Part shown: piece after piece, positions 682-51,570 of the stretch
Numbering within the stretch: position 1 is the first letter of the stretch
How the letters are laid out: each line of letters opens with the position of its first letter
DNA from: Ehretia macrophylla
Taxonomy: Eukaryota; Streptophyta; Magnoliopsida; Boraginales; Ehretiaceae
NCBI GenBank assembly: GCA_037974665.1
Contig: CM075783.1
Location: 13,479,762-13,543,761, forward strand
DNA: 64,000 nucleotides
Reading direction: 5' to 3'
Program-made: the position numbers and the translations under genes
The notes under the pieces: model-generated
What the model was told of the DNA's origin: nothing
Database searches by the model: none
What the model saw: the letters and a program-made list of their open reading frames with translations, nothing else

Positions 682-3600
682 TTATGACTTAGAAGTAAAT
701 GTTAGCTTGCAAAGAAATAAGAACACATACAAGTTTGGACTAAAATCTAAATTAACTTGCAAAGAAAGAAGAACACATACAAGTTTGGAATGGCTTGGCT
801 TGGGTTGGAGTGTTGAAAGCTTGTCAGCATTGGCTTTAATTCTTTTCATGTGTTTTGCATGATCTGAGGTGCATGACCGTGTTGAATGACCAAATTTCAA
901 ACACATTCTACACTTAGTCATCCTAACAGGGAGCTTTCGTCTTGGTGCGACATTTGTAGTATTTGCACTAGTTTCCTTTTCCACAGTTCCTTGCACTTGT
1001 ATATTACTTAGATCGGCATCCACTAACACATTGCCCATCATTACCTTTACCTGCACCCACTTGTTCTTGCATTAATATCGATCTCTCTTGTGTTAGCATC
1101 TGCAATGACTTGGCTAGTATTACTGGCAACATTGATATCACTCATGTATGCATCTACATTGATATCATTTAGGTACTCAGAATGTATATTCAGATCATTA
1201 CATTCACTGCTCACATTACCTGCACTACTCCCTTGTACATCATTTGTACTTACTGATGTTGTTTTATTCTTACAACTCCTTTTGTTATGGCCAAGACATT
1301 TGCAAATGGTACACTTCTGCTTTTGCCCTTTTATGGTGATCTTTTGAATTTTTTAATTGCTACATTTAGCTCTTGCTTTTTTTTTCTCTTCATCAACCTC
1401 CTTTCTTCTAGATTTCTTTGGCCTCCCTGGAGGTTTGAATGCCTTGGATGCATGTACTTCTGGTTTACCAATAACTAGCCACAAGTTTGGGCCATTAATT
1501 GGATTAATGATAGGCTCATATGCCCTTATGTAAGCATTCTTCTTATAGCAATTATTGACATAGTCTTCAGGCTCACGTCCCACATAAGTCAGGGCATAAA
1601 TAGTATGTGCACATAGGATTCCAGAAAGATTCCATCTCCTACATGAACAACTCATCTCATTCAAATCTATAACATATTGTTCTGTCCCTAAACACCTAAC
1701 TTCAAACTTGTTCCCACCACAGAATGTGGCATTCCATGGTGCACTCTCACTTTTCTTCTGATTCATCAACTTTCTTATTTTAAGGCAAATACTCCCTTCA
1801 TATTTTGGCATCCACTCCCTCTTAATTTGCAACCTCCTCATTAGATAAATCTGAATCTTTTCCAACATCACTATAATGGATCTATCTCTTGCCGGGAGTA
1901 TGACAAAATTAAAACTCTCACACAGGTTATTAAACAAAATGTCACATTAACTTCTTGACCTACCAACCATTTATATGCACTATGGTCTATCTAATTTATC
2001 ACATTCATAACCCCCACCAAACTTTTCAACATATGGTGCCTTTATAGCTCGCCACATTGGGTTTTTGGGTATTAATCCACCATGCAATTTCTTGAAATTG
2101 TTGTACATGTGTCGAGCACAGTGTCAATGCTCAACATTAGGCAAGATCTCAAAGATGGCAGGCAATAGACCCTGCAAACAACATACATAAAAGATTAGTT
2201 AACATATTTACTTTACTTTAAGCAAGTTAAAAAAAGTTTAATATAATGTATTTACCTTCTACTTATTAGTCATTAAAACCCATCTCTTTTGATCCCACAT
2301 TTCAAGATCTTGGTCCATTAGATTCAAAAACTAACTCTAAGTTCTTTTATCTTATTTTTTTAGCAACATAATAGATTACTGGGTAAATGCAGTTATTGCC
2401 ATCAATTCCCACTACAGTCAATATAACCCAAGATGAGATCGTTTCAAATGGCAACCATTTGAACCAATTACACGTCTGCAACCTGATAAAAAACCTTTTT
2501 CTTAGTGCATCAAGGAATACGTATAATCTCATAAACCTTTCTTCTCTCATCTTCTTCAGTCTCTAACACTACCGTTGACCCAGGATTAGATCTCATTAAC
2601 TCAGCACAATAATCTCAAATCCTTTTATATTGATCATTTTACTGCCCTTCGATCATTGTTCTAGCCAATATGAAAGTTCTATACACTTGTTTCTCACTTA
2701 TGTTTACACACAAGTTTGAGTGGACCCTTGTTTGGAAATCAGGAACTATGGAAAACATGTTTAACCTTATGTCATCAAGGTACATCCTACACAAAACTTT
2801 GGCAGTTAGATTTCTGCTATCTAATGCCTTTCCATAGTTCTGTTGATTGCACATGCTTTGGAATGTACCCTTATCCTTAAGATAAGATGCATTTATGAAC
2901 CAGTCACATGTCTTACCCTGGCATTTAGCTTTCAATCTATCCTTGTCATTCTTCACAAACTCGATGTCACTAGAGTGCTTTACTTTGTGTGCCCTAATTG
3001 CACTTCTCAGTTCTTTTGCATCACCAAATAATATGCCACCAGCAAACTTAGGATCAACCATGTCTACAAAAGCTCTAAATCTCTTAAATTTTTTTATCAC
3101 TGTCTCATTTTTTATCATCTTCAAAACTATTATCCAAACTCTCAAGATCTTTAGAAGATTCAATCTCAGAACCACTGCCACAAATTTCAATGTCTTCTCC
3201 ATATTCACCACTGCTAGAGGTGTCTCCAATCCAAGCTCTCTTACCCTTATTCTCATTCATTGAATTAAGAAGTCCATTCAATTAATCATCTATATCAATG
3301 TTTTCCTCATAAAGCTTGTCATCATTACTTTAATTCCTGGTATAATCACTGTCAGCAAAACTGGAATCCTCAGTATTATCCTCTTCACTATGACTATCAT
3401 TATCTTCCAAAACCTTTCTTTTCCTCTTCTCTAATCTTTTTTTAAGCCATTTTATCACGACCCTCATCAGCAAAAAATGCATTGATATCATTCTCTATCC
3501 CTATTTCTAACATATTAGAAAGACCAACGACAGGATTGTATGATTCAACTTGGTTCTCTAAAGTCAGGGACAACACATCATACTCTCTAACCACATAAAC

Positions 3601-15483: not shown

Positions 15484-15902
15484 TGAAATGGGTATAAACC
15501 CGAGCCGGGACAGGTCTTCCCGACCTGAAGCATGCGACTTGGCCTCTGTCCAACCCGCATCACTTCTCCCAGCCTAGCGGTCATATCTGATCTAACATAA
15601 AGGCGATGCCCAACTTTAACCTCTGGACAATAGCTTTTTCTGCTGGATAATAGCTTTAAGCATTAATTGTTGCCCGTAATCTATATTAGTATAAATAGCC
15701 TACTCAACAACCCTTACCAGGTAATTCGTGCATATTTATTGCTCTCAACAACCTACCATTCAACTCTGGCATATTAATCACTTTCGCACCCGAGGGAAAA
15801 CACGGGCCACTACCCCCATAGTTCCTTCCCTTCTTTTGCAGATCAGGTAGCTTGAGGTTGAAGTGTTGAGCTTGAGCGGACTGACATTTTCCACCCTCAT
15901 CT
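15484..15902 (+). repeat. Tat 5' LTR
   Basis: It starts TGAAATGGGTATAAACCCGA and ends CCACCCTCATCT just before the primer site. A TATA-like TATAAATAG lies at ~15690. It lacks about 45 bp present in the 3' LTR, apparently by deletion between two short TTAA-like repeats. Confidence 0.85.
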
Positions 15903-15903
15903 G

Positions 15904-15922
15904 TTGACGCCGTTTGTGGGAA
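15904..15922 (+). promoter_or_regulatory. Tat primer binding site
   Basis: TTGACGCCGTTTGTGGGAA lies directly after the LTR and resembles the TTGGCGCCGTCTGTGGGAA type found in plant Tat and related gypsy elements. Confidence 0.7.
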
Positions 15923-15960
15923 CCACTAGCTTTGTTTTCCCATCAACCCTCTGAGAAAAG

Positions 15961-17500
15961 CCACTATGGTGAGCACTAAAATCCATAACCGTATGGCCGG
16001 GACCCTCCATCCTCGGATAGGATACCTGAAACGACCCCCGACACAAACTTAACCTAAACCTACACTAGACTGAGCCAGCGTATACACTTAGCCACAAATA
16101 TTCCCCAACTTTAAGCGGATGATTTAATGGCCTCAATGAGTCCAGAGGTGAAACTGCTGTACCAGATGTTCAGAGAGCTCCAAGATGCGGTGGGTCGCCT
16201 CTTTGCCAATTAGGCGTTCCTACCGTAGCACCGAACCTAGGTTCACATAGCCGACCAGGGGTATAAAGGAATCGTACCCCAGCAGACGCAGTGAGTTCGG
16301 AACGAAGCTAACGATCGAGGTTCCTTAGGGCCTATTAACCGCCCCGAGGGGACGAAAGGGAAAATGGCAGTCTATACTGAGCCCGAACCTACTAAGACTG
16401 CTTCAGCAATCACCAAGGTCATTCATCAACTCGGGGTTAGTCCATTGACCCCGAACATCTTGGCCACTCCTTTGCCCGCAGGCAACCGCATGCCCAATCT
16501 GGCTATGTACAATGGAGAGAAGGATCCAACCAGCTACCCAAGAATTTTGAGCACCACATGACTCTCCATGACATGACCGACGCAATGAAATGTAAGGCAT
16601 TCCTGACCACATTGGTAGGAAATGCATTGACTTGGTATCAGGGGCTTTCGTCGGGATTGATTGACGTATTCTCCAAGATAGCGGAGGCTTTCTTGGGTCT
16701 GTTTGCTGGTAGCCGACGGTCGACGCGGCACACTTCATCTCTATTGGCAATTTGGCAGTATAAGGGAGAGACCTTGAGGTTATACATAGCCCAATTCAAC
16801 GAAGAGTCTCTCAGGATCCCTTATTTGGAGGATTTCATGGCATTGATGGCATACCAAAGTGGGCTTAGGTTGGAGCTCTTATATTATCATTAGCCATTAA
16901 TCCGGTGGACACCATAGCCAACCTGATGGTCAAGGCCCAAGGGTATATCCATGATGAGGATATCTACAAGGCGAAAATAGATGATGACAAGGAGAAGGAG
17001 TTGGCGAAGAAGGGGGAATCCTCTGCACCGAAGGGTTAGCCCAAGAATAAAGCCCAGGGTGACAATAAAGGAAAGCAGCAACAGCAACGGGGACAAGCGT
17101 CGAGGTTCACAGCGTTTACCTCTCTTAATACTCCGAGGGAGCAGATCCTAATAGAGGTACAAACCCTGTATGATATACCTCCCCCTCCTAAGATGGGAGG
17201 TCAGCCTAAGAAGAGGTCAAAAAATAAATTTTGTCAATTTCACAATGATTTCGAGCATAATACTAAGGATTACAATGTGCTGAAGTAGGAAATTGAGGCC
17301 TTGATTGCCCAGGCTTATTTGAGAAGGTACATTGCGGGTCAACCACCTCGGAATCCAGAGTAAGAGGGGAAGAGAAAGAGAGAGAATCCCCCCAAGACGG
17401 GCTCCAAGAAGAGTTTACCACGCTGCGATCGAGACCATTGTAGGAGGTCTCATTTCCAGAGGAGAAACTGCTGCAAGTCAGAAAGGGTACGTCCGGGCCA
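15961..17500 (+). pseudogene. Tat gag, broken
   Basis: The ATG at 15966 begins a degenerate reading frame. The clear gag core runs from about 16364 to 16893 (LATPLPAGNRMPNLAMYNGE, then in another frame DAMKCKAFLTTLVGNALTWY and IAQFNEESLRIPY), typical of the retrotransposon gag domain. A basic, Gln-rich tail follows to ~17400, with a region resembling the CX2C-type knuckle (KNKFCQFHNDFEHNT) at ~17220-17270. The protein would form cytoplasmic capsids. In-frame stops include TAG at 16211, 17037 and 17286, each where Gln is plausible. It cannot make full-length gag. Confidence 0.8.
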
Positions 17501-17559
17501 GGCGTGAGTGAGGGCCTGTGGCGAGTGTGGCCCGAGGCCTCGAGAGGATAACCTTTTAC

Positions 17560-20500
17560 TTGGATAATTTGGAGGGAGAATTACTCCCGCATGATGACCC
17601 CCTAATGATTAGTACAACCTTCTCCAACAGATGGTCGTGAGAATTATGGTGGCTAGAGGGAGTTCGACAAAGTTAATCTTCTTGAAAGCTTTTGAGCAGT
17701 TGGGGCTCGATTAAAGTCGGCTAAGGTAGTTGAGAGGCACCTTGGCAAGATTAACTAGGCAAGAGTATAAGGCTAAGGGGATAATCAACTTCCCATTAAC
17801 TTTGGAAGTGGGAAAAAAGTGTGTCACCATGCAGGCTAACTTTATTGTGATAGACTGCAACTCCGCCTACAATAGGAACTTAGGTTGGGTAGCCTTGAAC
17901 TACTTCAAATTGGTTCCTTCTATCTACCACTAAATGTTATAGTTTTCAACCCCCATGGGCATTGCGGAGCTTAGAGAAGCGCAGCTTTTAGCTCGGGAAT
18001 GTTATGGGAATTTCATGTGCCTAAAGTAGTAGGCAAATTGGAGCCCAGACCTACCCAAGAAGAAAAAGGATGCCAAGCAAGGAAGCCCTGCCTAAGACTT
18101 ATAGGAAATCCAACTGTTCGATGATAACGAGAAGGCTAAGATCGGGAGCGAGCTTCCTAACCACCTCAAGAAATGTATAAGCCAGCTCTTTTTTTCCAAA
18201 ATGAAAGTATATTTTTTTGGTCTACTATTGATATGACAGGTATCAAACTGAGCATAATCAAGCATCATTTGAGCGTTGAGCTCGATTACCTACCAATGCA
18301 GCAGAAGCGTAAGCATTTCCATTATGATAAACAAAAATTTATTTCTTAGAAAGTGGATAAGCTGATCAATGACAGCCACATTCGTGAGATTATGTGCCCG
18401 ACCTGGTAGTCTAATGTGGTTTTGATTCAAAAGACCCCGGGAAAATGGAGACTGTGCATTGACTTCACCGACCTGAATAAAGCATGCCCCAAGGATTGCT
18501 TTTCTTTGCCCCGGATTGACCAAATAGTTGATACTACCTCGAGCTATGAGCTACTCACATTTATGGATGCCTTCAAGGGTTACAACCATATCAAAATGGC
18601 TCTCGAGGACCGAGAAAAAATAACCTTCATCACTGACCACGGGCTCCATTATTACGAGGTCATACTGGTTGGCCATAAGAATGCAGGGGCCACTTACCAG
18701 CGGATAGTGAACAAAGTTTTCAAATGTTAGATCGGGTGCAATATGGAGATTTAAGTTGATGACATGTTGGTCAAAAGCAAAAGGGTTGAGGATCACATTG
18801 TCGACTTGAGAGAAGCCTTCGCTGCTATGGAAAAGTTTGGGATCAAGCTGAATCCAAAGAAGTGTGCATTTGAAGTTAAGGCAGAAAAGTTCTTGGGTTT
18901 CATGGTCACGACTTGGGGAATTGAGCCCAACCCAAAAATGATTTAGGTGATATTGGATCCGGCCTCTCTGAGCTGCATGAATTACGTGCAGGAGCTGACA
19001 GGCAGAGTGGCTACCTTGAGCCAATTCATGTCCAGGTCAGTAGATAAGTGTGCGCCTCTTTTCAAAATTCTAAGAAATCCAAAAATTTTTGAGTGGACGG
19101 AAGAATGTTAAAAGGCATTTGACGATCTGAAAAGGTACCTATCTTCGCCCCCTCTGTTCTCCCGACCTGAGAAATGGGAAGAGCTGGTACTATATTTGGC
19201 ATACTCGAGAACAACGGTAGTAGCTGTGGTAGTCCGGGAAGAACACAAGGATTAGAAACCTGTCTACTATGTTAGTGAAACTCTCAGGGATACTGAGACG
19301 AGATGTTCATCCTTAGAAAAGATTGCTTTGGCTCTGATCATAGTATCCAGAAAGTTAAGGCCCTATTTTGATGCACATACCGTCAAGGTAATGATCGATG
19401 CACCACTCAAGTCTATTTTACACAAGCCAGAAGCCTCGGGCAGACTCATTAAGTGGACGGTGAAGGTAAGTCAGTTTGACCTATTGTATCATCTGAGGAG
19501 GGCTATTAAAGGTCAAGCAATTGCTGATTTTGTAATAGAATGCACCGACCAAACCGAGCACAATCCCGAAGAGGTTTGAAAGATCCAGGTTGATGGGGCA
19601 TCAGGTAAGTAAGGTAATGGGGCCAGAGTTATGATTCTCAACCCGATGGGGCATGAGCACCAATACTCTTTGAAGTTTGCATTCCTGACCTCGAATAACG
19701 AGGACGAGTATGAGGCATTGTTGGCAGGCTTAAAGATAACGTCTCAGCTCGGGGCTCAGACGGCAGAAATGTATACTAATTCTTAGTTGATTTCTAATCA
19801 CATGTTAGGAAAATTCGAAGCTAGGGGTACCGTGATGCTTGCTTACCTTAATAAGGTTAAGGAATTGATCTTGAGGTTTCGAAGGTTTTCGGTGTAGCAG
19901 ATCCTGAGACAAAAGAACGTTAAAGTTGATGCCTTAGCCAAATTAGCAGCTGGAGAAACCTGTCCTGCGGTGGTTTATATAGAGGAGATTTTCGAACCGA
20001 GCGTCCAGATTGGCGAAAAAGCAATTGCAAAATTAAATGTGAATCCGGACTGGACTAAACCGATCCTAGACTTCATCAAGAGCGGTATGGTCCCAGATGA
20101 CGAGAAGGCAGCTCGAAAGATTGAGAGGCAGGCTTCGAGGTATGTCATCGTGGCTGGGCAACTGTATAAGAAAGCTTATACTTAGCCAGGAATGAAACTA
20201 TGTACTAAGAAAAATTCATGAAGGCATATATGGGAACTACCTCGGAGGTAAAGCTTTGGCTCGGAAGGCTTTGAGACAAGGTTATTTCTAGCCGACCCTA
20301 GAGCAGGATGCCAAGGAATTTGTAAGGTGGTATGATACTTGCTAGCAATTTGCCAGTATTCAGAAGAAGCTCGTGGTGGATCTGACAGTAATGCTAAGCC
20401 TATGGCCATTTTATCAGTGGGGTTTAGACATTATCGGCTACTTTCGAACATCGTGGGGCAGAAGAAACATGTTTTTGTGGCTATTGATTACTTCACTAAA

Positions 20501-21254
20501 TGGCCCAAGGCCGAGGCCGTGGCGAGAATCACCGACAAGGTGACTTGGAACTTTATGTGGAGGTTCATCACTTGCCACTTTAGTGTGCCCAAAGTTATGG
20601 TGACCGACCATGACAAGCAGTTTGATAATGCATACTTCTGAGGGAAATGTTCCAAGATCATAATTAATCTTAAATTCTATTTTATTGCTCATCTTCAATG
20701 CAATGGTTAAGTCGAGGTAACTAATAGATCTATTTTGCAGGGTTTGAGAACCAAGTTGGGAGAGGCAAAGTGACTATGGGCAGTGAACTTCCTGAGGTCC
20801 TATGGGTTCATCGCACCACGACCAGTTCGGCGACAGAAAAGTCTCTCTTCAATCTGACTTTCGATATGGAACTATTTCTGCCAGTGGAGATCGGGTCTCC
20901 CACCAGTATGACCTTCATCCATGACGAGAAAATAAACAAAGCAAGGATCCGAGATGAGCTGGAATTAGCTAAAGAATTGCGGGCTAAGGCTCAAGTCCGA
21001 ATACTAGCTAGCAAGTTGGCCATGGAGAGAGCCTTCGCAAAGCAGGTCAAGCCCAAGTCAATCAAAGAAGGGATCTGGTCCTGAGAAGAACTATCTTTCA
21101 GCTGACCTCGAGTGGCAAACTGTCCCTGCTCTGGGAGGGTCCATACCAAGTAGTGAAAGAACTTCGGCCAGGGACTTTCTATCTTGTTGAAAAGTATGGA
21201 AAGCAGTTGAGAAATGCTTGGAATGCTGAGCATTTAAAGTTTTATTTTGTATGA
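17560..21254 (+). pseudogene. Tat pol: protease, RT, RNase H, second RNase H, integrase; many stops
   Basis: Protease-like sequence lies at 17630-17940 (VVRIMVARGSSTKLIFLKAF, with the Asp of the usual V-D-RGSS motif replaced). RT lies at 18400-18950 (GKWRLCIDFTDLNKACPKD; VDDMLVKS). RNase H lies at 19090-19560 (SSLEKIALALIIVSRKLRPY). A second, archaeal-type RNase H lies at 19580-19950 (IQVDGASG; NEDEYEALLAGL), the Tat hallmark. Integrase lies at 20030-21254 (AIDYFTKWPKAEA; VTDHDKQFDN; NG-VEVTNR; end NAEHLKFYFV). These would copy RNA to DNA in particles and insert it in the nucleus. The tyrosine codon of the YVDD box is a TAA stop (18752). In-frame TAG stops occur at 18347, 18407, 18728, 18944, 19253, 19784, 19895, 20183 and 20343. 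Non-functional. Confidence 0.9.
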
Positions 21255-21933
21255 CTACTGAGCCACAGAGAGATTTTTATGCTCTGAACAAAATGTACTA
21301 AATCCTTTCTTGAATGCCAAGTCTATGTTCTTAAACATACTTGTGAATTTTGTACATCTTTGCGAGGTTAGAATACTTTATATTTCTAAAAGCAATAATG
21401 AGCTCGCAATTGTTAATGCACTTGTTACTTGATATACTAACTCAGCTGATTAGCTAAATGCCTGCGAGTCACACTGGTGGTCCAAGGCGAGATGAGGTCG
21501 TGAAAAAACACACTCGTGAACTTAGATTACTTAGGCCGATCCGAGCCTAAAACTAATCGAGGAAGTTATGGGAAAACACTCATAAACGCACAGCTTGGGC
21601 ACAATGCCAATATAAGGTTGTCATCACTTATTCATTGGTGACTATTGAGGATCCAGCTCGGGTCCGACATCAATTTGGTTTGATTAAGTTTCAAGGTTAA
21701 AACTCAATTTAAGGTTTAATTTGAGTCTACCTTTAAATCAAATTGATTCACTTAAAGTTAACAGTAGTCTCAACCTCAAAATATAAGTCAAGTTCCAAGC
21801 TAATTTACTTATACTTCGAATGATACTTTGAAAAATTGAGCGAATCGGCATAGAGCTTGGCTCAAGAGATATGTCGCACTCAAAACAAAGTAAAAATAAA
21901 GGTAAAAAATTGACTTAAAGATTGCTCTATTAA
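21255..21933. other. Tat post-pol spacer, left part
   Basis: Non-coding Tat DNA lies between the integrase end and the CACTA insertion. It is somewhat richer in G+C than surrounding intergenic DNA. No ORF was recognised. Confidence 0.5.
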
Positions 21934-21954
21934 GACTACAAAAAACAAGCTATT

Positions 21955-22330
21955 TTGTGACGGCCAGTAATCGTCACATTTTCGTCACAAACAAGCAAAT
22001 GCAACAAAATTGTGATGACATATCAGTTGTCGCCAAACATGGTATCGCAAAATCGTTTTTCGTCACATTTTTATGGCCTTGTGACTAATTTGTGACGACA
22101 TACAAAGCTGGAAGTGTTCGTGACAAATTCGTGGCAAATGCGACTAATATGCCACGACATGTAGTTGAGGCCATTTCGTAACAAATTTTTTCGTCACAAA
22201 TTCGTGGCTAATTTTTTCGTCACAAATTCGTGGCTAATTTTTTAGTCACAAATTCGTGGTTAAATTTTTCATCACAAATTCGTCCCGAATTGTAAATGAC
22301 GGCCCTATTTCATTTTTGTCACAAATTTGT
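21955..22330. repeat. CACTA left subterminal repeat array
   Basis: More than ten degenerate copies of GTCACAAA or its complement occur, including three near-identical runs of CGTCACAAATTCGTGGC spaced about 28 bp (22190-22270). Such arrays bind the subterminal-binding transposase protein in En/Spm elements. Confidence 0.8.
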
Positions 22331-23429
22331 GGTGGCAGTGACTCTGGTACATTTTCCATATGAGGCTCCATTTCTGATCAACATGACCATCAAGTAGAAC
22401 AAGGAAAACATTAATTCAGCTGATAATAGATTTACAATTTACGCGACAACTTGATGCACTACAAAGATATTTAGTGAAGATTGGAGCAATAAGAACAACA
22501 ATGAAAATATGGAGGAAAGTAAGAAGCTATACTAATGGTGTTACATTAACTAAACAAAGATGTTAAAAAAATTCAACATTGAATGAATTTAACAATTTGA
22601 ATAGTGCTATCAGTAATGCACAGTATCACCAAATTTCTATGGCTGCATTGCAAAGAAGACCAAACAAAGACCAAAAGAATTAGATGTATTCCCAAATTCC
22701 ATGGCTGGAGTGCAGCATATCTGAATTATAATGCAAATAGAAACTTCAAGTTATGAGTCATGCCAAACAAAGATGTATGACATTAAAATTATAGAACTCT
22801 TTCCAAGACCCGGGAGTTTCATACGCCGGACTGCGCTTTATAGATATCATGTATTGCTCTTTGTTTTTGCTATTATCTTCTTTTCCTATTTGTGCTATCA
22901 AAGTGATTAAGAAACAGAACAATAGAGCTTATAAAGATAAGTAAACTAATAACTCAGAAGCAAGGGATGTAAATCTATTAACTATTTCTATCAATTTTAT
23001 TTTCACTTTGTCTCGAGTCTACATAACAAAAGATACCAAATTAAACCAAACCAAAAAAAAAAAAACAAACCAAGCTTTATATCTACTAGGTGTGGTCGGC
23101 TAATACCAAGTCAAATCAAATCAAAATAAACTAAACCAAGCTTTATCCCACTAGGTTCAGTCACCTAATACTGAATCAAACATATAAGAAAAAAATTCCT
23201 TAGATACTTGTTACTAGTTAGAATTCAGAGCAAGATTCCAAAAATAAAAAATAAAAACATGAGAAAAGGCAAAGCAAACAATTCTCAAGGCCTTATAATT
23301 GAAAGATGTCAGAATACATAATTGTAATTATTTATAGCAATATATATATATACAGAAATGGAAACTTGATGTAGCAAAAGCAATAATGTCCACCTTCTTG
23401 ATAAACTCTGCATACATGAATGTACGCTT
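22331..23429. other. CACTA interior, unassigned
   Basis: No coding block was recognised. Two related phrases (CCAAATTTCTATGGCTGCA at ~22630 and CCCAAATTCCATGGCTGGA at ~22690) suggest a small diverged tandem duplication. Some of it could be decayed downstream parts of the ARGONAUTE gene, but I could not show that. Confidence 0.4.
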
Positions 23430-24072
23430 GACAGGTAACAAAGAATTCATACCACCCAGCTGCCATGTATAAGTTTTAACATAATACATCTTTTCTACTC
23501 TTATGGGAGCAGGACCACGTCAAGAATGAGGTTCTTCTTCAATGGTGACAAATGGATCATTATTACATAGACTGCAAAATAATTCAGTTGTATTAGATAA
23601 TAAAAATTGGAGATGTTAAGATAAAAAATTAGGATCAATAAAAGATTGTAAGGAAACACTTACAATTCCTTTGTTTTGGCCACATTTTATCAGATCCCGA
23701 CAGTCTATTCATATCAACACGGAAAGAGAAGTTCACAACAGTCCATCGTTCAATTTTAACTAGTTCAACTAGTTTCTGGACAGGTAAAGCTTTTATGTCA
23801 AATACTGATTAGAACTTTTAAACTAGAATAAAGAAGTCTCTTACCTTGTTGTTGAAATTCCACCTTCCATTGCGAGGAAAAAAGTCCTCTCCATTGCCTG
23901 CTGTCAATTGCATAATATATGCAGAGAAAGACAGGTGAGAGACTGAAGCAAGTTGTTAATGATAAGCAACACAAATGGCCATATGCATACAAAGTAAGAA
24001 TAAACAAGAAAAGAGTCCCACAGGAACAAAAATAGATTACCCTTGGTGCTTGCAAAACACGACCTTCCACCT
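23430..24072 (-). pseudogene. Captured fragment of an ARGONAUTE gene, AGO4/6/9 clade, introns retained
   Basis: Four exon remnants lie in gene order on the minus strand. (1) About 24072-24041 reads QVEGRVLQAPR, then GTAATC. (2) 23907-23845 reads LTAGNGEDFFPRNGRWNFNNK in pieces, ending at a GTAAGAG donor. (3) 23775-23664 reads KLVELVKIERWTVVNFSFR after a CAG acceptor and ends at GTAAGTG. (4) From 23571, after TTTTGCAG, DPFVTIEEEPHS-stop-RGPAPIRVEKM is followed by QLGGMNSLLPVK. This order matches the PAZ/linker-to-MID/PIWI part of AGO4-type proteins, which load 24-nt siRNAs and direct DNA methylation. A TGA in exon 4, a phase mismatch and the missing N- and C-terminal parts make it non-coding for AGO. 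Introns show DNA-level capture. Recognition is by remembered family consensus. Confidence 0.82.
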
Positions 24073-26723
24073 GAGATAACTCAGTAAATAGTCATGTAGG
24101 GGTCAAATTATCTACATGAAAAAATGCCCCGTGTAAATTTCAATTAAACTTTGAGGGAAAGATTATAGATCAATTCAAAATTTGACAACAATTATAAAAT
24201 GTTTACGAAGCATCAAGTAAATAGATTAACATACGCATGTGATACATTTTCAGAGATTGTCAAATGAGAGGGACTGAATTCAACATCTATTCTAAAGTCA
24301 ATTAGTACCAAAACTAGTGCAACAACTTTATTCCAAAATCAAATGACATATTCCACAAAACAATTCGAGCAACTCCCGAAGCTAATCGAGCTCTAGAAAG
24401 ATTGAACCTTTTGAACTTGTGAGAGATGCACCAATTGATCTTTGAGCTATTAAAAAATAAGGGAGATGTCATTTTGAGAAGACAAGAATGAGGGTTCTTA
24501 AGAGGTAGGATAGAATGTTTTGTTGGAGATTTATTGTAGTTTAAGTTTTCAAGTTTGAAATTATATTATTTCATCATAAATATTATTTAATTTTTAACTG
24601 ATTTGAAACATATTTTGAGATACACCATTGCCTCATAGGCTTATAACATTAAAATAACTTCAATGTTGTAGTTTCTCATCAGAATTAAAATTAAACCAAA
24701 AAATGTCTAACTATTTAAGTGTAACCTTTCGCATGTTAAGGTACACTTTATATAATGTGACTTACCCTATCGTAAACTCATTTTTTTGGCTAGATTAGCA
24801 AGAAGATTATTTTCATCCCACTTCAATGTATAAAACATGACATCAGTTCAAAAATCAAACAAGATGTTCGATGACAAGACACAAGAAAGTAAGTCAATAT
24901 TAAAATAACCTACTGTTTAAAGGAATTTAAACTTATATAACCAATAATTCATGATATAAATCAGACACAAGTTTTTACCCTATGCCAACGCAAAGAAAAA
25001 AGAGTTTACACTTTATACCATTCATATTCATATAAATAGATAAGCTAAAATAATGGAACAATTAGTGATGGAAACCATCTCATCTACGATAAGATTTTCA
25101 AAATTAGCAATGAAGGTGATGAAAGATGAATTCCTAAATCTTATTTAATCGAAGCAATATATGCTGCAATGGAAGTCAAAGCTCTTTACTCAAGTTTAGG
25201 GCTGGATTTGGATACTTTGGTGTATTTTTTAGAAGTCTAAGAGACACAATTAGCTCCTAATATATAGTAGCCAATAACTTGTAGTGGACCTCCTAGTAAT
25301 AGACACAGAAAAATGCTATCCAAAGTCTAATGTGCCTTTAACATATCTGGGAATACATTTAACATCTTGAAAGTGTCCAAAATTTGAAGTTTTCATATCC
25401 CTTCCATTACAAATATTGTTGGGCTCTTGACTGTCCTAGATCATGGAGCACGTCACTGCATCACGGGATTTAATTATAATTTTTGGGTGAATCCAATGTG
25501 ATTCTTTCGAAAGTGAGTCTGATCACTTCATGAAGGGGAAAAAAATGAAAAACATTAGATATTATAGAGCCCCAACAAATTATCTATAATGTTGAGTATT
25601 ACAGACTCATGGATTACATGTCTTTATGCCAAAGCAATGGGATTTTCTTTTGGCAAGGAACATAGTTGATTTCTTAAGTAGTTTTACTGCATACTAATCG
25701 GACTAATTGATATGAATGCCACCTTCAACTGAAACACCACTTCAATCCCTAAAAATCAATGCTCATTTGAGCTACTGAAAATGATAAGTATAGGAATGTT
25801 TCCTATAAATAAAATATAAATTTAAACCAAAGGCGACACAAAGTCAGCATTCATGTGTATGATGAATGAAGAAAACCTACCCTATTGCAAAGAAAATCGA
25901 TACATAGTAAAAAGGTATTGAATTTGTTAAACCAAACTTGAGGAGCTTGTTTAAGACCATTAATTATTTTTTATAACTTCACATGATTAAAAAATAGAGG
26001 AAAATGGAATCTAGGAGGTTGGTCCATAAAAAAATTTTCATGCAAGCTGCTATGAAAAAAAAAAACAAGAAAAATTCATTTTCGACTTCAAAATGTTGGA
26101 TATCCCAATACTTAACCACCAGAATACTGAACACCACCCTATTTTTTAAAAAAAAGAATGAAATGAGGATCAAAACACTAACATCAACTGTCATTTTCAC
26201 AAATTTTGATGAAATTAAAATAGCGAAGATGTATTTCCTCATCATTGTGAAATAGAGCACTTGTACCACGAAGCTGAACGTTTTGCACTCTCGCCTAGTT
26301 GGTTAGTTCAATAAGTCCTAGACTATGCAATTTTGCGCAACCATCTATCATTTGCAAAGACCAAAAAAACTATAAATACAAATTGATCAAAATCAACCTT
26401 TCCTTCACTCACAACACAAAAAATCCTAACAGAGATAACATGTTCTCTTCTCTGCTTTCCCACACATCTTATTATTTCTTCTTCATTTTTATGCAGTTCT
26501 AATTTGTGCATTTCTTGCAGATATTATGTGTTCATCGATCAAATTAATTGGAACATGCTTCTCAATACAGTTGAGTGGAGGTTCCTCTCAATTCCTTAAT
26601 AGGACCCACAATTTCTTCCAAACACAAGGGAGTAACACATTGCCCATCAATTTCAAATAACAAATCACTTTTCATCTGATCATAACAAACACGCATATAA
26701 AATCCAAATCCAAATGACATACT
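24073..26723. other. CACTA interior, unassigned, between the two captured fragments
   Basis: About 2.65 kb of AT-rich sequence. Overlapping ORFs on both strands near 25979-26269 and 26299-26511 are low-complexity and lack motifs. No transposase, RNA gene or further host exon was recognised. Confidence 0.45.
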
Positions 26724-26875
26724 AGTAATGCGAACCATGGTTTCTCTTCCAGACAAATCAGTCACGTGCTGCAATAACATAAAATAAATAAATAATCTTC
26801 CAAAAAATAGTACAATAAACACAAACAAAGAATCAGAAGACATATGATGAAGGTGTCGTTAAAGGAGGCAAAAAA
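26724..26875 (-). pseudogene. Captured fragment of ribosomal protein uS11 gene (RPS14), intron retained
   Basis: On the minus strand 26875-26846 reads FFASFNDTFI. It is followed by a ~77-bp intron whose donor GT has become AT (ATATG) and whose acceptor is TTATTGCAG. The next exon reads HVTDLSGRETMVRIT (26768-26724). These two pieces are consecutive in cytosolic 40S protein uS11 and match the family at almost every residue. After VRIT the frame continues for some 50 residues (FGFYMRVCYDQMKSD...) that are not uS11 and that I do not recognise, so the exon is joined to foreign sequence. It is a fragment of about 25 codons with no ribosomal function. Confidence 0.82.
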
Positions 26876-27354
26876 GTAAGAACTTGAAGACACCTCATTG
26901 GAAAGGAAAAAGAATACAAGAAGATGGATGTACTGTGACCTAGAAAAGAAAAAAGATAAAGATAGACAGAGTAGGGGAAGGCATGTCGAGGCATAAATAC
27001 CATACATCCGCACCCACACACACAAGTAGAAGAGAGAATAACTCTACAAGCTCATAATCAAACGCGGAGCAGAGCAGTGAAAAACGAAACAGTGAATGAT
27101 TTGGAGAAGAAAGAAGAAAATACAAAGGGTTACTTTTTAGAACTTCCAAATGATGGTGCAAGATGGCAGTGGCAGTGGTGGTGGTGCAAGGTGCGATGGT
27201 GTAGAGTACCGAAGGTGCAAGGTACTAGTGCTGGTGGGGTTGCGAAGTGGCAGTGAAGTGTGTGTGTAGGTGGATGGCTGGTGAAAATCGTATGGGTAAA
27301 AAATGGGCTATTTAATTTGTCATTTTTTCAACAAAGTATTTTTTTAATTAAATA

Positions 27355-27800
27355 GTAAAGTCGTCACAATTTCGTCACAAACTCATATTCGTCTTATTTT
27401 CGTCACAAACTTTGCATCAATAATATTTTTTTTTCCGCTGCTAAATTGACTTTGTCACAAAATCATAGCCGATTGCCACAAATAGGCGACGAAAAATCTA
27501 ATTTGTATAAAATGTCACAGATTCGTCACAATAGTTGAGTCAACTCTGCAACGTTATCACAAAAATGTAGTCTTTTATCACGACTTTGAGAGGATTTTTA
27601 TTTCCCGCGCTACAGCTATTGCTGTCATGGCCAAATTATCACAGTTTATGACGAATTTACGACAAATTGTAGTTCGCGTCACAATTTCGTCCCAATTTCC
27701 ACACAATCTGAGCGACAAAAAATTTCGTAGCAATTGCGTCCCAATTTTGCGTCGATTTTCATTTTGTCACAAAATTTCGTTGCAAAACAGCTTTTTTTGT
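27355..27800. repeat. CACTA right subterminal repeat array
   Basis: Many copies of CGTCACAA and ATTTCGTC lie in inverted orientation relative to the left array, running up to the terminal TTTTTTTGTAGT. Confidence 0.8.
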
Positions 27801-27859
27801 AGTATAAATTCAAAATAATAGTACATGAATAGGCCACCTCGGGCCGAAGTACATTAGAA

Positions 27860-28981
27860 GAAAAATACAAAGTAAAAAAATCCTAAGTTTGTGGGGGGAA
27901 AGCCGAGCTCGAGACAACAGCATTGGCAATAGGGTCCGCGACAGGCGTGCTACCATTCTCCTCGCCTTGTAATCCTTCCCTGTGCTACTCGTTCGCACAG
28001 TTGAGATTTCTAGTGATCTCCTTAGTAGCAACCCGGGTCTCGGGATCCAAGTTGGGGATCTCCCATAATGCAGCATCGGAGGGCTCAACGATGTCGTTGA
28101 TGCCGGATTTGACGTCAGGGTAAAAGGTTTTGGCCAGAATCTTAGACTTGAGTTGGCCCCTGGAATAGCCTATGACATAGCCATATTGAGCTATCTTGTC
28201 TGAGTTCTCAAGTAGAAACTAGACTTCATCATCGCCATCTTTAAAGGCCTGCACTGCCTTCTCACCATTAGCCCTGACTTTTTTAACAAAGCCCCAGAGT
28301 TTTCCCTCAGTCGCGTCCTTCTCACCTCGGACTTTCTCGAGCTCATTTGCGTGTTTCTCCTGCAGCTTGGCTTGGTCCGAGGTCGAGGCCTAAAGCTTTT
28401 GATTCTTCTCTTTGAGCTCTTTCTTCAAGCGCTTGATTTTATCCCCATCATCTTTGAACCACCTCCTGGCTTCGAGTTGGTCCTACATCAGCTCAGTTTT
28501 CACCTGTTGGTAGCGGCATTTGAGCTCAGTGAAGTAGTTCTACATCTTCACAAAAAGCATGGGCATGGTGAGGATGTGGGACTCAACCTGAGAAATAGCA
28601 AAGGGAAGTGATCAGTTGCAATTAAAACTGACCTAGAAAAGAGAAATAAAGAATTGAGACTTATAGTGGCGGGTATGGTCTACATTGTGTCGATCACTTG
28701 GTTGTCAGGCCACTTTCGGAGGTTGGAGTCACACGGAGCCGAGGTAGTTGCCGCCACTGCTTGGCTTAGGGTACTGCAAAAGACCTCTTGTGTTTTTCCT
28801 TGGTCTTTGACCCCTGCACGGGACGTCTTCTTTTGGGGAGAAACCACCTCAGCTCGGGCCCTGGTGGGCTCATTGATAGAGACCCCCTCGATAGATCTTT
28901 TCTTGGATGAGAAGTCACCCTTCCTGGCCTTCTTAGAAGACACCTTCTTGATGAGCTCGGCCCGACCCTTGGATGGATCCT
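27860..28981 (-). pseudogene. Tat antisense ORF, C-terminal coiled-coil part
   Basis: Read on the minus strand this codes for a Lys/Glu-rich helical protein (DQLEARRWFKDDGDKIKRL; KLQEKHANELEKVRGEKDAT; IAQYGYVIGYSRGQLKSKIL) with several stops. It runs against the direction of gag-pol between pol and the 3' LTR. Antisense ORFs in this place are known from plant Tat-lineage elements; their role is unclear. The reading frame is cut at 28981 by the solo LTR, and its upstream half resumes at 31172. Confidence 0.65.
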
Positions 28982-29869
28982 TGTGAGACCCGCACGAAGC
29001 CATATGTATTTTATAGCATTTAATATGCTTTTGCATCATTTAATGTGCATTTATATCATTTTAAGTGACTTCGCCTTGTTTTACGTGCATTGGGATGTTT
29101 TAGACATTGTACACATTAATTAAAATTCTATTAAATTACAATAGCTAACTAGGACAATTAGATTGCAACCATAATGGAAAACTAGAAAATAAGCATTTAG
29201 TTGGAGGGCAAATTGGTCATTGGCCTAAAAATTAAAATATCTTACCTATCAATCTCTACAAAACAAACATATACACACTCATACACACATACACGGTTCA
29301 CATACAAACACACACGGTTGAGGAAGAAAGAAAAGAAGAAAGAAGAAAGGGAGGAAGAAGAAGGAAGAAATAGGGGATTTCAAGATACTCTCTTGCATTT
29401 TTAAGCTCCATCTTGCATCTACCAACATCATTCTTGCATTTCAAACTCTTGCAAAGATGAGGGATGTTTTCTAAAAGCCTTACAAAGTCACATAAGCATG
29501 TGGATGAGTTCTATATGATTATTAAGAATGACTAGGGTTGTATGTATGCTAGATTGTGAAGTTGAGCTTGGATTGTTGAAGCTTGGGTTTCAAGACTTTG
29601 ATATTGTGTTATATTTTACTTACACTTGTTCTTGTATGATAGGATAATGTTAGATGTGAGTAATATATTTGAATTGAGTCTACATGATGCGTTGGTTAAT
29701 GGCATGGTTGGTGTGTTGTAGTTGCTGGTTTTGATCTTTATTGGGTTTCAAGATGAAATTGAGTCTACATGATGTTTAAAGCATGCGAAGTTTGTGCTCA
29801 GTGCAATGGCTAAGGTTTGGGTTTAAAGGGCATAGCATAAAGAACAAGGAGAGGAAATTCGTGTGTTTT

Positions 29870-29970
29870 GCTGCAGGATCCGATCGATCGGATCAGTCGG
29901 ATCCCCTCTGCCATGGATCCGGTCGATTGAATCCAAACGAGTAGGTCATCTGGATAGTTCATTCGGATCC
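29870..29970. repeat. Cluster of palindromic GATCCGGTCGA-type motifs in the LTR
   Basis: GATCCGATCGATCGGATC, AGTCGGATCC and GGATCCGGTCGATTG occur within about 100 bp. A matching cluster with CCGGTCGACCGG sits at the corresponding place of the other solo LTR (54115-54220). Confidence 0.7.
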
Positions 29971-30349
29971 TCATTTTCGTGCCTCATGCATTAGTAAGTT
30001 GGGTATTGTGCATTCCTTGAGTATGCATTGCGTGCGTGGATACATATACTAGTAAAATGGGTACTATTCGACGGTTAAATTATTAACTTTATATCAGTCT
30101 AAGGTGTAATTTTAATTGTGATCACTTGCATACTTAGGGGGAAAATCAATATATATGTTTAAAATGATGTTATCAACGATCCGATATGCATGATTTGTCT
30201 ACATGAACTTTGATACGGATGTCTTGAACTTGTACTTGCTCAATGTATGTATATGTGATAAGTAATGCTTGCTAAGTCTTGAAATTACCTTGTGCTTGTT
30301 CAAAGGCATTCTTGTTTCTGTTGCAACCTCTCGTTTCTTAAGGTATAGG

Positions 30350-30515
30350 AATGAAGTGATATGCAGAACAAAGTGCACACGACTATGATAGTGAGAGACA
30401 CATTTTGCATATAAGACACATCTCTATCTTATCCTCTCCTGCTTGTCTATGGAAAAAGAATGAGGTGCTATGCGGAACAAAGTGCACACGTTTGTGATAG
30501 TAGGAGTCACCTCTT
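30350..30515. repeat. Tandem duplication within the solo LTR, ~109-bp period
   Basis: Two units begin GAATGAAGTGATATGCAGAA (about 30349) and GAATGAGGTGCTATGCGGAA (about 30458), both continuing AAAGTGCACACG and GTGATAGT or TATGATAGT. The other solo LTR lacks a clear second unit. Confidence 0.65.
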
Positions 30516-31171
30516 GCGTCCGTATGAGTTACCTATCTACCCTTGTTCCACTCTCTTGATCAAGTCTGATATGTTTTAACCCTGTTATGTTTCTCGCAAT
30601 AAGATATGTCTTTACCTGTTCCATTAAAATAAGGTGATTTTTTGTTTATGCATAGTTATGTTTTTATGTTCATGGCAAAGTTTTACTAAATTGTTTGCAA
30701 ATATTCCCTTCCCGTTATCCCTCGCTGAGCTAGGTGTAACTCACCCCTCTTTATCACCATTTCAGGTAAGGTTGAGCCCGAGCCGGCCCCTCAAATTGAT
30801 GAAGAACTTCCTTGACGGGATAAGTCAGATTTCTACTTTTGTGTTCTATGAGCCTTCTTGTTGATGTATTTGATGAGTTACTTGATGTAAAAACTTATTC
30901 TTTTGGACAACTATGACGTAACTAAGTAGATTATTATTCCTTTGAGACCTAGGAACCCTAATGTTGGTTAGTTATTAAGTATGAACAGGTGATTTGAGGT
31001 TTTGTGAATATTTTACAAATTGATGTAATCCTTTAAGGCCGATGACTTGACAGTCTCTTGAAACTTTGGATGTACAGGCTGCTAATTTGTTAATCACAGG
31101 TTTTAAGCATCACGAACGTCATGTTTCGGCCTTAGCCTAGTGATGGATTGGGTCCAGGGCGTGTCAATCCT

Positions 31172-32640
31172 CAGTGGTGCTGAGGGCCTTTTCCTCGACG
31201 ATTGAGACATGGTAGGCCCTATGCCCTTATCCTTGGATAACAAAAAGTCCTGGCCTTGGCCCTAGCCACCAAACTTGCTCATTGCAAAGGCCTTGGCTGC
31301 TTTATTCATCCCTGAAAGAACAAAGAAAGGTTAAAAGCCCGCAATAGTAACCATAAAATAAAGAAGGTAAAGAGTCTCAGGAGTGCGGAGAGGTCGGGTC
31401 CAAAACTCAAAGATTGACCCTTCTTTCCTCTAGGAGGCTCGTCCTCGATTAGACCTGGATGTGGTTTGTCCTCATCAGGTGGTCCCGACCCAAACAACTT
31501 AGACGCCCAGATCTTTTCCCAGTCCAGATGTTAGTCCACATTCATTAGGTTCTCAGGCGCGAGGAGAAATTTAAGGTTGGCCATCTTCGGGGCGGATAGC
31601 TTGGGAGCCTTATTGATATTCTTGGGCAAGCTGTGTTTCCAAGCTCAAGAAACCCTCCAATTTGTGCTCGACTGGACGAAGTAATATCTGTTGTGCTAGC
31701 CTTTGTTGGAGGATGCCCAAGCCGTGAAGATGTTATGCTTGTCCCGAGCACAAAAATGGAACCATCATCGTCCCCCCGAATTTGGCTTGTAGACAAAACA
31801 CTTTCTGAACAGCTTCAGTGTCAAGACTATTCCTTTTAGGAGTGTGTACACATTAAAGGCCACCATTATAGCCCAGCCATTAGGTGCCATTTGTCCCAGA
31901 CTGAGCTGGAAGTAGTTGAGAATTCTACTATGTAATCGAGCAGGGGCAACCTGATAACATCAAAGGCAAAGTCGTAGACGGTATACTCGTCCATCCCTGG
32001 ATGACAGGTGGGATCTTTCTGACTTGGGACCCTAAGCCTGTAGTCCTCGGGAGTAGCCCATTCACTCAATCTTTTATTTGTCTCGGTCACTGTTGATTTG
32101 CATTCCCTCCGGTAGCAGGAAAAAAGTTGTTTCCCCCAACCTGAAGAAGCAGGAGTCTCCCCACTCGTTCCGCTTCTCGAGCTTGGTAGAGGCTCCATGG
32201 CCAGTGGCTCAGCTTCTATGACATTCTTGCTTGAGGTCGGCTATGGAGCTTGGAAAGGATCTCATAGGTTCCCAGCCGGGATTTCGAGCCTTTCTAATTT
32301 ATTCAGAGGAGATCCACGCCAAATTCGATCTCATCCATGTCGGAAAAACCTCTCAATCGATCCATTTCAGCTCCATCAGGGTTTTGTCTAACCTCAAAAA
32401 TCTCATAGTCATTGTCACTTCCTCCTTTTACACCGCCCTCTTGAGCAGGTGTAATGCCTGAGCTCTCTTCCTGAGGAGGCGATGTTCCCGAGGTCGAGGA
32501 ACTTTTTTTGTCACTACCGTAGACCGAGCTGAGCGTGCTTATGAATCCTTGGACTCCGGCCTCTCTATTTGTAGGGACAAGGGAAAGAAAGAAAACTTTA
32601 AAACTCTTAAGGAAAAGAGATCAGGGACGTACCTAATCGC
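31172..32640 (-). pseudogene. Tat antisense ORF, N-terminal part ('putative gypsy-type transposon' domain)
   Basis: On the minus strand 32198-31866 reads from an acidic/Ser-rich start into PEDYRLRVPSQKDPTCHPGM and FDVIRLPLLDYIVEF. In another frame it continues FRKCFVYKPNSGGRWFHFCA and SSTNWRVS to about 31630, then into a Pro/Glu-rich segment. The YRLRVP...RLPL pattern resembles the Pfam family described as putative gypsy-type transposon (Transposase_28). No enzymatic role is known to me. Several stops break it, and the solo LTR at 28982-31166 separates it from its coiled-coil half. Confidence 0.65.
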
Positions 32641-32956
32641 TGAGCTAAAAGAGTCCGAACTAAAGTTTTTGACTGAGTGCTCCGAGCTGGATGTCTCGAC
32701 CTGAATGGTGAAACTAGAGAGAATTCTGTGAGCTCAATTTGCAAAGGCACAAAAAGTGGATCTCAATGCAGCTCAAGCCTATTTATAGAAGGACATTTGC
32801 CTCGGGAAGCCCAACCGTCGCATCTTGTCAGAACGCAGGTGACGTGTCAACATCTTGCCTCTAGGTTGGATGACGTGGCAGCTCCTAGTAGTTTGAAGAC
32901 TTGGCGGCACGAGCATACTCATGGCGTTTCTAGAACCCTTACAGAGTTCTAGACTC

Positions 32957-32966
32957 GGGGAGGAAA
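32957..32966 (+). promoter_or_regulatory. Tat polypurine tract
   Basis: GGGGAGGAAA directly precedes the 3' LTR, where plus-strand DNA synthesis is primed in LTR retrotransposons. Confidence 0.75.
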
Positions 32967-33435
32967 TGATATAGGTATAAACCCGAGCCAGGGCAAGTCT
33001 TCCTGACCTGGGGCGTACGACCTGGCCTCTGTCCGACCTGTGCCACTTCCCTCAGCCTGATAGTCACTTTCGATGTGACATAAAGGCAATACTCGACTTT
33101 GACGTCTGGACAATAGATTTATCCGCTGGATAATAGCTTTAACCGTTGAGTAATGAGCTCAGGCAAGCATGAATAGTACCAGACAATATTAAGCATTAAT
33201 TGTTATCTGTAATTGATATTAGTATAGATAGCCCACTCACCAACCTTTACCAAGTAATTCTCGCATATTTATTGCTCTTAACTACCTACTATTCAGCTCG
33301 GATATACTAATTACTTTCGCACCCGAGGGGAAACATAGGCCACTACTCCCCTGGTTCCTTCCTTTCTTTTGCAAGTCAGGTAGCTTGAGGTCGGAGTACT
33401 AAGCTTAGGCAGATCGGCATGTTCTACCTTCATCA
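32967..33435 (+). repeat. Tat 3' LTR
   Basis: It starts TGATATAGGTATAAACCCGA and ends CTACCTTCATCA. Order and wording match the 5' LTR with many substitutions plus ~45 bp absent there, suggesting an old insertion. Confidence 0.87.
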
Positions 33436-49136: not shown

Positions 49137-49795
49137 TATTGCATAAGAGTAAAATACATTATATCTTCCTGAGTTTTATAAAAGTTACACAATAAATCTT
49201 GTATTTTCAAAAGTAGCGTAAAACCCCATATGTTATCCATAATGTTGCACTATACACCCTCTGTCTAATTTTCTGTCAAATTTAACCGAGAGTGACATAC
49301 ACACGCTTATAATGCAACTAAAAATCTCACAAAACCTTAAAACACATTTAAATTGACCAAAATGCTCTTACATTGTTTCTTATTTTTCATCTTTTATTTA
49401 TCATTTTTTTTTTGTTTTTCACCCTTCTTGTTCCTCACCTAGCACATACCACCACCACTACATCTCTCCACCATAAATAATTTTATAAACTTACCATTAA
49501 TAATATTTTGAGAATCTTTATAGCCTATATATCATTTTCATATAGAAATTTAACCTCAGGATTGAATTTTAAACTAAACCCCAATTTTTTCAAAATTTTA
49601 TTATTGTGTATTAGTTAGATAAATCTTTGTGTTGTGGACTCCCCAATGGTGACTGGTGGAGGAAGTGGCGGAGGTGGTTTGTGACAGTGGAGTTGGTAGA
49701 GGAATGGCGGAGAAGATGGGTTGTAGTGGTCGCTATTATCGGCATATAAAATGATAACACTATTTCGTGCATAAACAAAGACAACAATCGCATAC

Positions 49796-50929: not shown

Positions 50930-51439
50930 AATTAGCGACGAAATAGTTACGGCAATGAGCCGACAAAAGGCTACGGATATTTGGCGACAAATGACTACGG
51001 ATTGGCTACCATAACAATCCGTAGCCGTGGACGACGGCCTATTTATGACCGAAATGGCTACTGTTTTACTACAGACGTTAATAATTAATAACAAAATCAA
51101 AATTTTAGTTGGCTACAAATGGGCTACGGATTGGCTACGGTAAAAGGGCTACCGATATTTAGGACCGAAAGGACTACGGATTTGCTACGAACGTTAATAA
51201 TTAATTTTTTTTAAAAAAAGTTGGCTACGGATGGGCTACGACTATTTTGCTACGGAAGTTATAAAAAATAAATACAAATTAATTTTCGGAATTGGCTACG
51301 GATGGGCTACAGAATATCAAATTGGCGACGAAGCTTTTTACTACGTACGGTATTCCGTAGCCTAGCGGTCGCCCATCCCAATTTGGCTACTACTAGGCTA
51401 TGGATTTTGGCCGTCGCCTCAACCTTTTTTTCTTGTAGT
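50930..51439. mobile_element. CACTA right end with GGCTACGG subterminal repeats; left end missing
   Basis: The segment ends CTTTTTTTCTTGTAGTG, i.e. CACTACAAGAAAAAAAG read inward. It contains about ten copies of GGCTACGG/GGCTAC or its complement. No matching left end (CACTACAAG followed by the same motif) was found within the surrounding MULE, so the element is truncated. Its repeat motif differs from that of the CACTA element at 21934, so it is a separate family. Confidence 0.75.
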
Positions 51440-51570
51440 GTTAAATGAGGGCGAGTGTGAAACATTATGGATAACACAGGGGGTTTTGTGACACTTTTTA
51501 AAACACAGGATTTTATATGTAACTTTTATAAAACACAATGGGATATGGTACATTTTACTCTATTGCATAA

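Follow-up and report, generated by a model that had tools for sequence, protein, structure and literature searches.

A non-autonomous CACTA-like element of 5,871 bp (21934..27804 of the window, by which the whole analyzed stretch of 64,000 nucleotides is meant) carries on its minus strand, at approximately 24085-23421, five exon remnants of an AGO4-type ARGONAUTE gene, which have kept their gene order and span linker 2, MID and the start of PIWI in the encoded protein. This arrangement is very probably the result of a Pack-CACTA-type transduplication, whereby the AGO4 slice was captured, the element carrying it became inserted in a gypsy-type retrotransposon copy, and the whole then decayed; ordinary gene-scrap capture is the most likely description of the event.

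All five blocks read from the minus strand. Block A (24041..24085; TELSQVEGRVLQAPR, TELSQ-VEGRVLQAPR) runs into the donor AGG/GTAATC and is followed by block B (23845..23907; LTAGNGEDFFPRNGRWNFNNK), which has the donor AAG/GTAAGA and has lost its acceptor, GCAA being present instead of AG. Block C (23664..23775; KLVELVKIERWTVVNFSFRVDMNRL / CRDLIKCGQNKGI), lying between the acceptor CCAG and the donor ATT/GTAAGT, contains a 2-nt frameshift near 23701 that leaves its second half out of frame, and block D (23487..23571; NDPFVTIEEEPHS*RGPAPIRVEKM) combines a probable indel near its start, where the ten bases between the acceptor and AATGAT are off-frame, with an in-frame TGA stop at 23522-23520. 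A linker of 27 nt (23460..23486), ending in ATGGCAG, then leads to block E (23421..23459; LGGMNSLLPVKRT, LGGMNSLL), the start of PIWI, and ~65 AGO4 residues, corresponding to residues ~551 to 617 of the Nyssa protein, are missing between blocks D and E. With a frameshift, a probable second indel, a stop, a lost acceptor and this gap, no intact coding capacity is left, and the AGO4 copy is, judging by its lesions, dead. The CpG observed/expected ratio of the AGO part (0.34, as compared to 1.21 and 1.74 at the element ends and 0.60 in both the window and the element) is compatible with decay by deamination, a fit that falls short of proof, and the TGA might have arisen from CGA.

That the match to AGO4 is not due to chance follows from tblastn and profile scores that are far above their controls. 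In a loose tblastn search (E up to 10), the locus was matched by all 120 AGO4-like proteins listed (of 382), and it accounted for 473 of the 1,162 rows, with 71.2 bits for the strongest single piece and 6e-21 as the lowest E; the remaining 689 rows fall elsewhere and score no higher than 28.9 bits. A profile was derived from 70 proteins, drawn from the 97 listed ones that are 850-960 residues long. Aligned so that frameshifts and introns were tolerated, it gave 458 half-bits against the whole element, whereas 20 dinucleotide shuffles averaged 72 and did not exceed 90; 446 of the 458 had already been reached where block D ends, and the small pieces added ahead of block A and past block D appear spurious. 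Block E, which is weaker than the other blocks, scored 54.8 on its own, and 30 mononucleotide shuffles of it reached 43.0 at most. The joined blocks matched ArgoMid in Pfam with E 7e-6 (26.6 bits, just under the curated cut-off of 27.5), the raw frames gave only a weak ArgoL2 match (E 0.036), and a PDB search returned Argonaute 10 (E 5e-5). The names seen among the best 120 of 382 relatives are AGO4-type, generic argonaute/Piwi or hypothetical, none being called AGO6 or AGO1; by these sequence matches the slice is AGO4-type in a broad sense that takes in AGO6 and AGO9.

An initial annotation, made from the letters alone, had proposed exon remnants of an AGO4-type gene in correct order and had staked this on an Argonaute match being found; tblastn, the profile (~450 half-bits) and the ArgoMid match agree on the family, and the blocks do stand in gene order. 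Its count of four remnants needs to be extended, as the four motifs it listed are blocks B to E, with block A, part of which lies at higher positions than it had covered, and the out-of-frame second half of block C having gone unnamed.

The same annotation had described intron boundaries as still visible, and these indeed coincide with the places at which two AGO4-like sequences with apparently retained introns, P0136 and P0137, are interrupted. Both break before LKVGNGED (LTTGNGEE), after NNK, before KLV (KFV) and after KGI (KGL), and P0137 breaks additionally after VEGRVLPAPR, block A being absent from P0136. At these very breaks the exon remnants of the window begin or end (APR/, /L(K,T), NNK/, /K(L,F)V, KG(I,L)/): the block A edge is matched in P0137, those of blocks B and C in both P0136 and P0137, and the right edge of block C also in P0133. 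Splice signals are still recognizable (donors GTAATC, GTAAGA and GTAAGT; acceptors CCAG and GCAG). As the exon edges correspond to intron positions of independent AGO4 sequences, it is genomic DNA, and not cDNA, that was copied. The 27 nt preceding block E are probably the tail of the intron before it. The upstream edge of the AGO4 match seems to fall inside an exon, as it would for a random genomic slice. A CAG/GTG before VEGRV was considered as an acceptor and rejected: the coding sequences of P0133 and P0137 run through ...FTQVEGRVL, and the window reads TELSQVEGRVL.

The boundaries of the element are given by ACTACAAAAA, found inverted at its two ends, and by the flanking TAA/TAA (21931..21933 on the left, 27805..27807 on the right), a 3-bp target-site duplication of the kind that CACTA elements make. 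Allowing each end at most one mismatch gave 24 end pairs, of which 21934/27804 is the only one in which both copies of ACTACAAAAA are exact, and it is one of two with matching 3-bp flanks; the other, 21935/24531, is mismatched at its right end, lacks CGTCACAA in the vicinity of 24531, and was taken as chance. The left terminus GACTACAAAAAACAAGCT with its subterminal repeats occupies 21934..22330 (plus strand) and includes 26-bp tandem units of TTTTTTCGTCACAAATTCGTGGC, and the right terminus, which reads TACTACAAAAAAAGCTG on the minus strand, occupies 27360..27804 with its own repeats, some of them inverted relative to the left end. The repeats are clustered at both ends, with the inverted arms I1 and I5-I7 common to left and right, and the terminal 700 bp of the element hold every CGTCACAA of the window, on the plus strand (8/8) as well as on the minus strand, where it reads TTGTGACG (2/2). 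No transposase family was matched in six frames of the element at E up to 1, as is to be expected of a non-autonomous member; it is the ends and repeats, with no transposase to add to them, that place the element in the CACTA superfamily. The placement of the AGO4 piece in a CACTA transposon, as initially annotated, therefore stands as far as the flanking TAA, the subterminal repeats and the inverted ACTACAAAAA go, whereas the terminal bases are G on the left and T on the right, giving GACTA/TACTA and not CACTA; with the terminal C lost at both ends, this copy has probably ceased to be mobile.

Elsewhere in the window, a second CACTA-type end, TTTCTTGTAGTG, is seen at 51429-51440, with GGCTACGGAT-type subterminal repeats at ~50930-51420 and no CACTACAAGAAA partner by exact search; the stretches at ~49150-49260 and 51460-51560 resemble, by eye, the inverted arms of a further element, and a broken Mutator-like transposase with DBD_Tnp_Mut and SWIM domains lies at 1356-3256 on the minus strand. 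Inside the element, a Ty1/copia reverse-transcriptase remnant was found at 25893..26060 on the minus strand (PF07727, E 3.6e-4, 20.6 bits versus a cut-off of 31.6), and an RNase H-like stretch near 25150-25290 seems, by eye, to follow it. A PF13425 match on a copia-like ORF was below its cut-off and was disregarded, and a protein search with a copia ORF gave, at E up to 1e-50, a single protein of 31% identity.

The CACTA-like element appears to be inserted in an old, degenerate Ty3/gypsy-type retrotransposon (15484..33434, plus strand), whose approximate limits are LTR-like repeats at 15484-15901 and 32967-33434 (339 identities, 78 mismatches and 52 gap positions when aligned). Broken into pieces, Retrotrans_gag, RVT_1, RNase H and a sub-threshold rve lie to the left of the element, the last match being near 20640. 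No retrotransposon domain was matched in the right flank, where two ORFs have no Pfam family, and the evidence for nesting consequently comes from the domains on the left and from the repeats outside both ends.

The most likely sequence of events would be that a non-autonomous CACTA element of a flowering plant took up genomic DNA comprising AGO4-type exons with their introns and a copia remnant, most simply by two nearby CACTA ends mobilizing the DNA between them, that a transposase acting in trans moved the element, and that it later landed in the old gypsy-type retrotransposon, having decayed since. Capture would thus have preceded the present insertion, and the slice would have no present function. 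The missing terminal C at both ends and the single copy in this window count against capture. The order of the two events could also have been the reverse, with the AGO4 slice arriving only once the CACTA element was in place, through double-strand-break repair or as part of a different nested element, and we consider this unlikely. It would agree with no second copy being seen in this window, in which nested or neighboring elements are frequent, and with some weak inverted pairs that bracket the slice among the 25 of 37 pairs listed, for example 22561-22590/24652-24681 (30 nt, 73%) and 22680-22697/25345-25362 (18 nt, 89%). These pairs, however, are short and imperfect, lie in AT-rich DNA and were not taken as ends, even if degraded or helitron-like ends would escape such a comparison.

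Quite improbable is a degraded AGO4 pseudogene locus that merely came to be flanked by two unrelated CACTA-type ends, so that no single element would have captured anything. Its interior is pieced together from several sources, a copia remnant among them, both terminal bases deviate, and end pairs with matching flanks do occur by chance (2 of the 24 loose pairs, 21934/27804 included), all of which would suit such a locus. The exact inverted ends, the TAA/TAA and the matching subterminal repeats nevertheless argue for a single element, and the gypsy-type domains on the left, together with LTR-like repeats beyond both ends, make the interval look like one that interrupts a retrotransposon.

The search for a donor returned no close one among the proteins compared (the 120 listed of 382 and eight mid-length matches). 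With the frameshift bridged, Nyssa P0002 and Liquidambar P0004 come closest within the listed 120 (out of 382), sharing 70 of 94 residues, and in blocks A and B together up to 29 of 31 residues are identical, block B being well conserved. P0001 of Prunus dulcis, which has the top E-value, was rejected as a clue to the donor: its gene model consists of two AGO4 copies (54% and 56% identical), and this would explain its high score. A search among 157 mid-length candidates gave 21 proteins at E up to 1e-3, and the highest identity in the eight of these compared by BLASTP was 53/67 residues, for P0126. P0126 is a plant-like AGO4 fragment deposited as Escherichia coli on a 380-base contig, presumably a contamination. 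Other genomes, those of Castanea and Eucalyptus among them, have incomplete AGO4 gene models that cover this region, region and length having been fixed by the query, and in trees such partial duplication of AGO4 may have happened repeatedly. Short AGO4-like linker 2-MID models include P0122-P0124 and P0128 of Castanea and P0125 and P0130 of Eucalyptus, with P0122 and P0123 running on into DUF7651. Scans of viral-contig DNA with an AGO pattern and with a subterminal pattern gave 0 matches each.

AGO4 is an effector gene of RdDM and as such among those that silence jumping genes, and we know of one well-supported example of counter-defence by CACTA elements, that of miR820 and DRM2. The initial annotation went on to propose that the slice might act likewise, yielding 21-24-nt RNAs directed at the host AGO gene; acting as miR820 does on DRM2, such RNAs would lower host AGO4 expression and relieve RdDM. 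Its premises (identity, introns, gene order and CACTA location) were upheld, and so was the analogy as far as structure goes, a piece of an RdDM gene with introns lying inside a CACTA element; the analogy is even closer than had been stated, as pre-miR820 of rice CACTA elements resembles an exon-to-intron piece of OsDRM2 (PMC3459959). The small-RNA action itself found no such backing, there being no strong foldback in the AGO part and no antisense AGO copy in the window by tblastn. Folding of the whole AGO region gave z -1.59 and -0.29 (20 shuffles each); the best 180-nt AGO window reached z -2.99 (190 element windows, 40 shuffles each), and a 140-nt part of it z -2.16 (200 shuffles), with short stems only. 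It is the subterminal repeats of the left end that fold most strongly in the element (z -4.99), and a z of -3.49 was seen at 24574 on the plus strand, outside the AGO part.

The missing foldback weakens the case for action in trans to a limited degree, since siRNAs made through a host polymerase need none. Small RNAs arise from many silenced plant elements, and they would probably arise from this one too, but would mainly silence the element itself. Captured sequences in maize (those of Helitrons, Pack-MULEs and Sireviruses) are reported to be siRNA reservoirs that can affect their donor genes (PMC13317346), and the conservation of block B makes short near-identical stretches shared with a donor possible. 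With the slice and the element ends decayed, no miRNA-like foldback or inverted AGO copy found in the window and no close donor among the compared proteins, silencing of host AGO4 by the slice is nonetheless highly improbable, even though exon and intron sequence of an RdDM effector gene is present in it; most likely the element does nothing to AGO4, and the slice is captured scrap.

CACTA elements are already known to capture gene pieces, usually with no demonstrated effect, and it is the AGO4 cargo that is notable. Pack-CACTA elements, as described in PMC8903248, are non-autonomous, have CACTA-type ends and contain genomic gene fragments, and they are proposed, in PMC8903248 and PMC13317346, to capture them by neighboring insertions whose outer ends are re-mobilized. 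The element described here shares the non-autonomy and, in blocks A-E, the genomic gene fragment; its ends are CACTA-like but read GACTA/TACTA, and it differs further in its single decayed copy and in a donor type that is an RdDM Argonaute. It resembles the rice pre-miR820 elements in being a CACTA with an exon-plus-intron piece similar to an RdDM gene, whereas miR820, which is present in several copies, has a foldback precursor and mapped cleavage and is made as RNAs of 22 and 24 nt (PMC3459959), and the AGO4 slice shows no strong foldback. Pack-MULEs and gene-carrying Helitrons likewise hold captured host-gene pieces that may yield siRNAs; they belong to other superfamilies. No report of an AGO or AGO4 piece in a CACTA element was found in the open-licence literature with exact words in titles and abstract starts. 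The word argonaute is absent from the main text of PMC8903248 and PMC13317346, and in PMC8616336, PMC10004981 and PMC11986588 it names a component of the pathway or stands in the titles of cited works.

An element that carries part of the machinery by which it is silenced is, all the same, a natural test case for a more general question: can gene capture become counter-defence? Should the host contain further copies of the family that share siRNAs, counter-defence would become directly testable; it is not shown by this single decayed copy. It would be a long shot for the present copy to turn out to be the relic of a live family whose captured-AGO4 siRNAs lower host AGO4 or alter its methylation, which would make it the second independent CACTA case of this kind.
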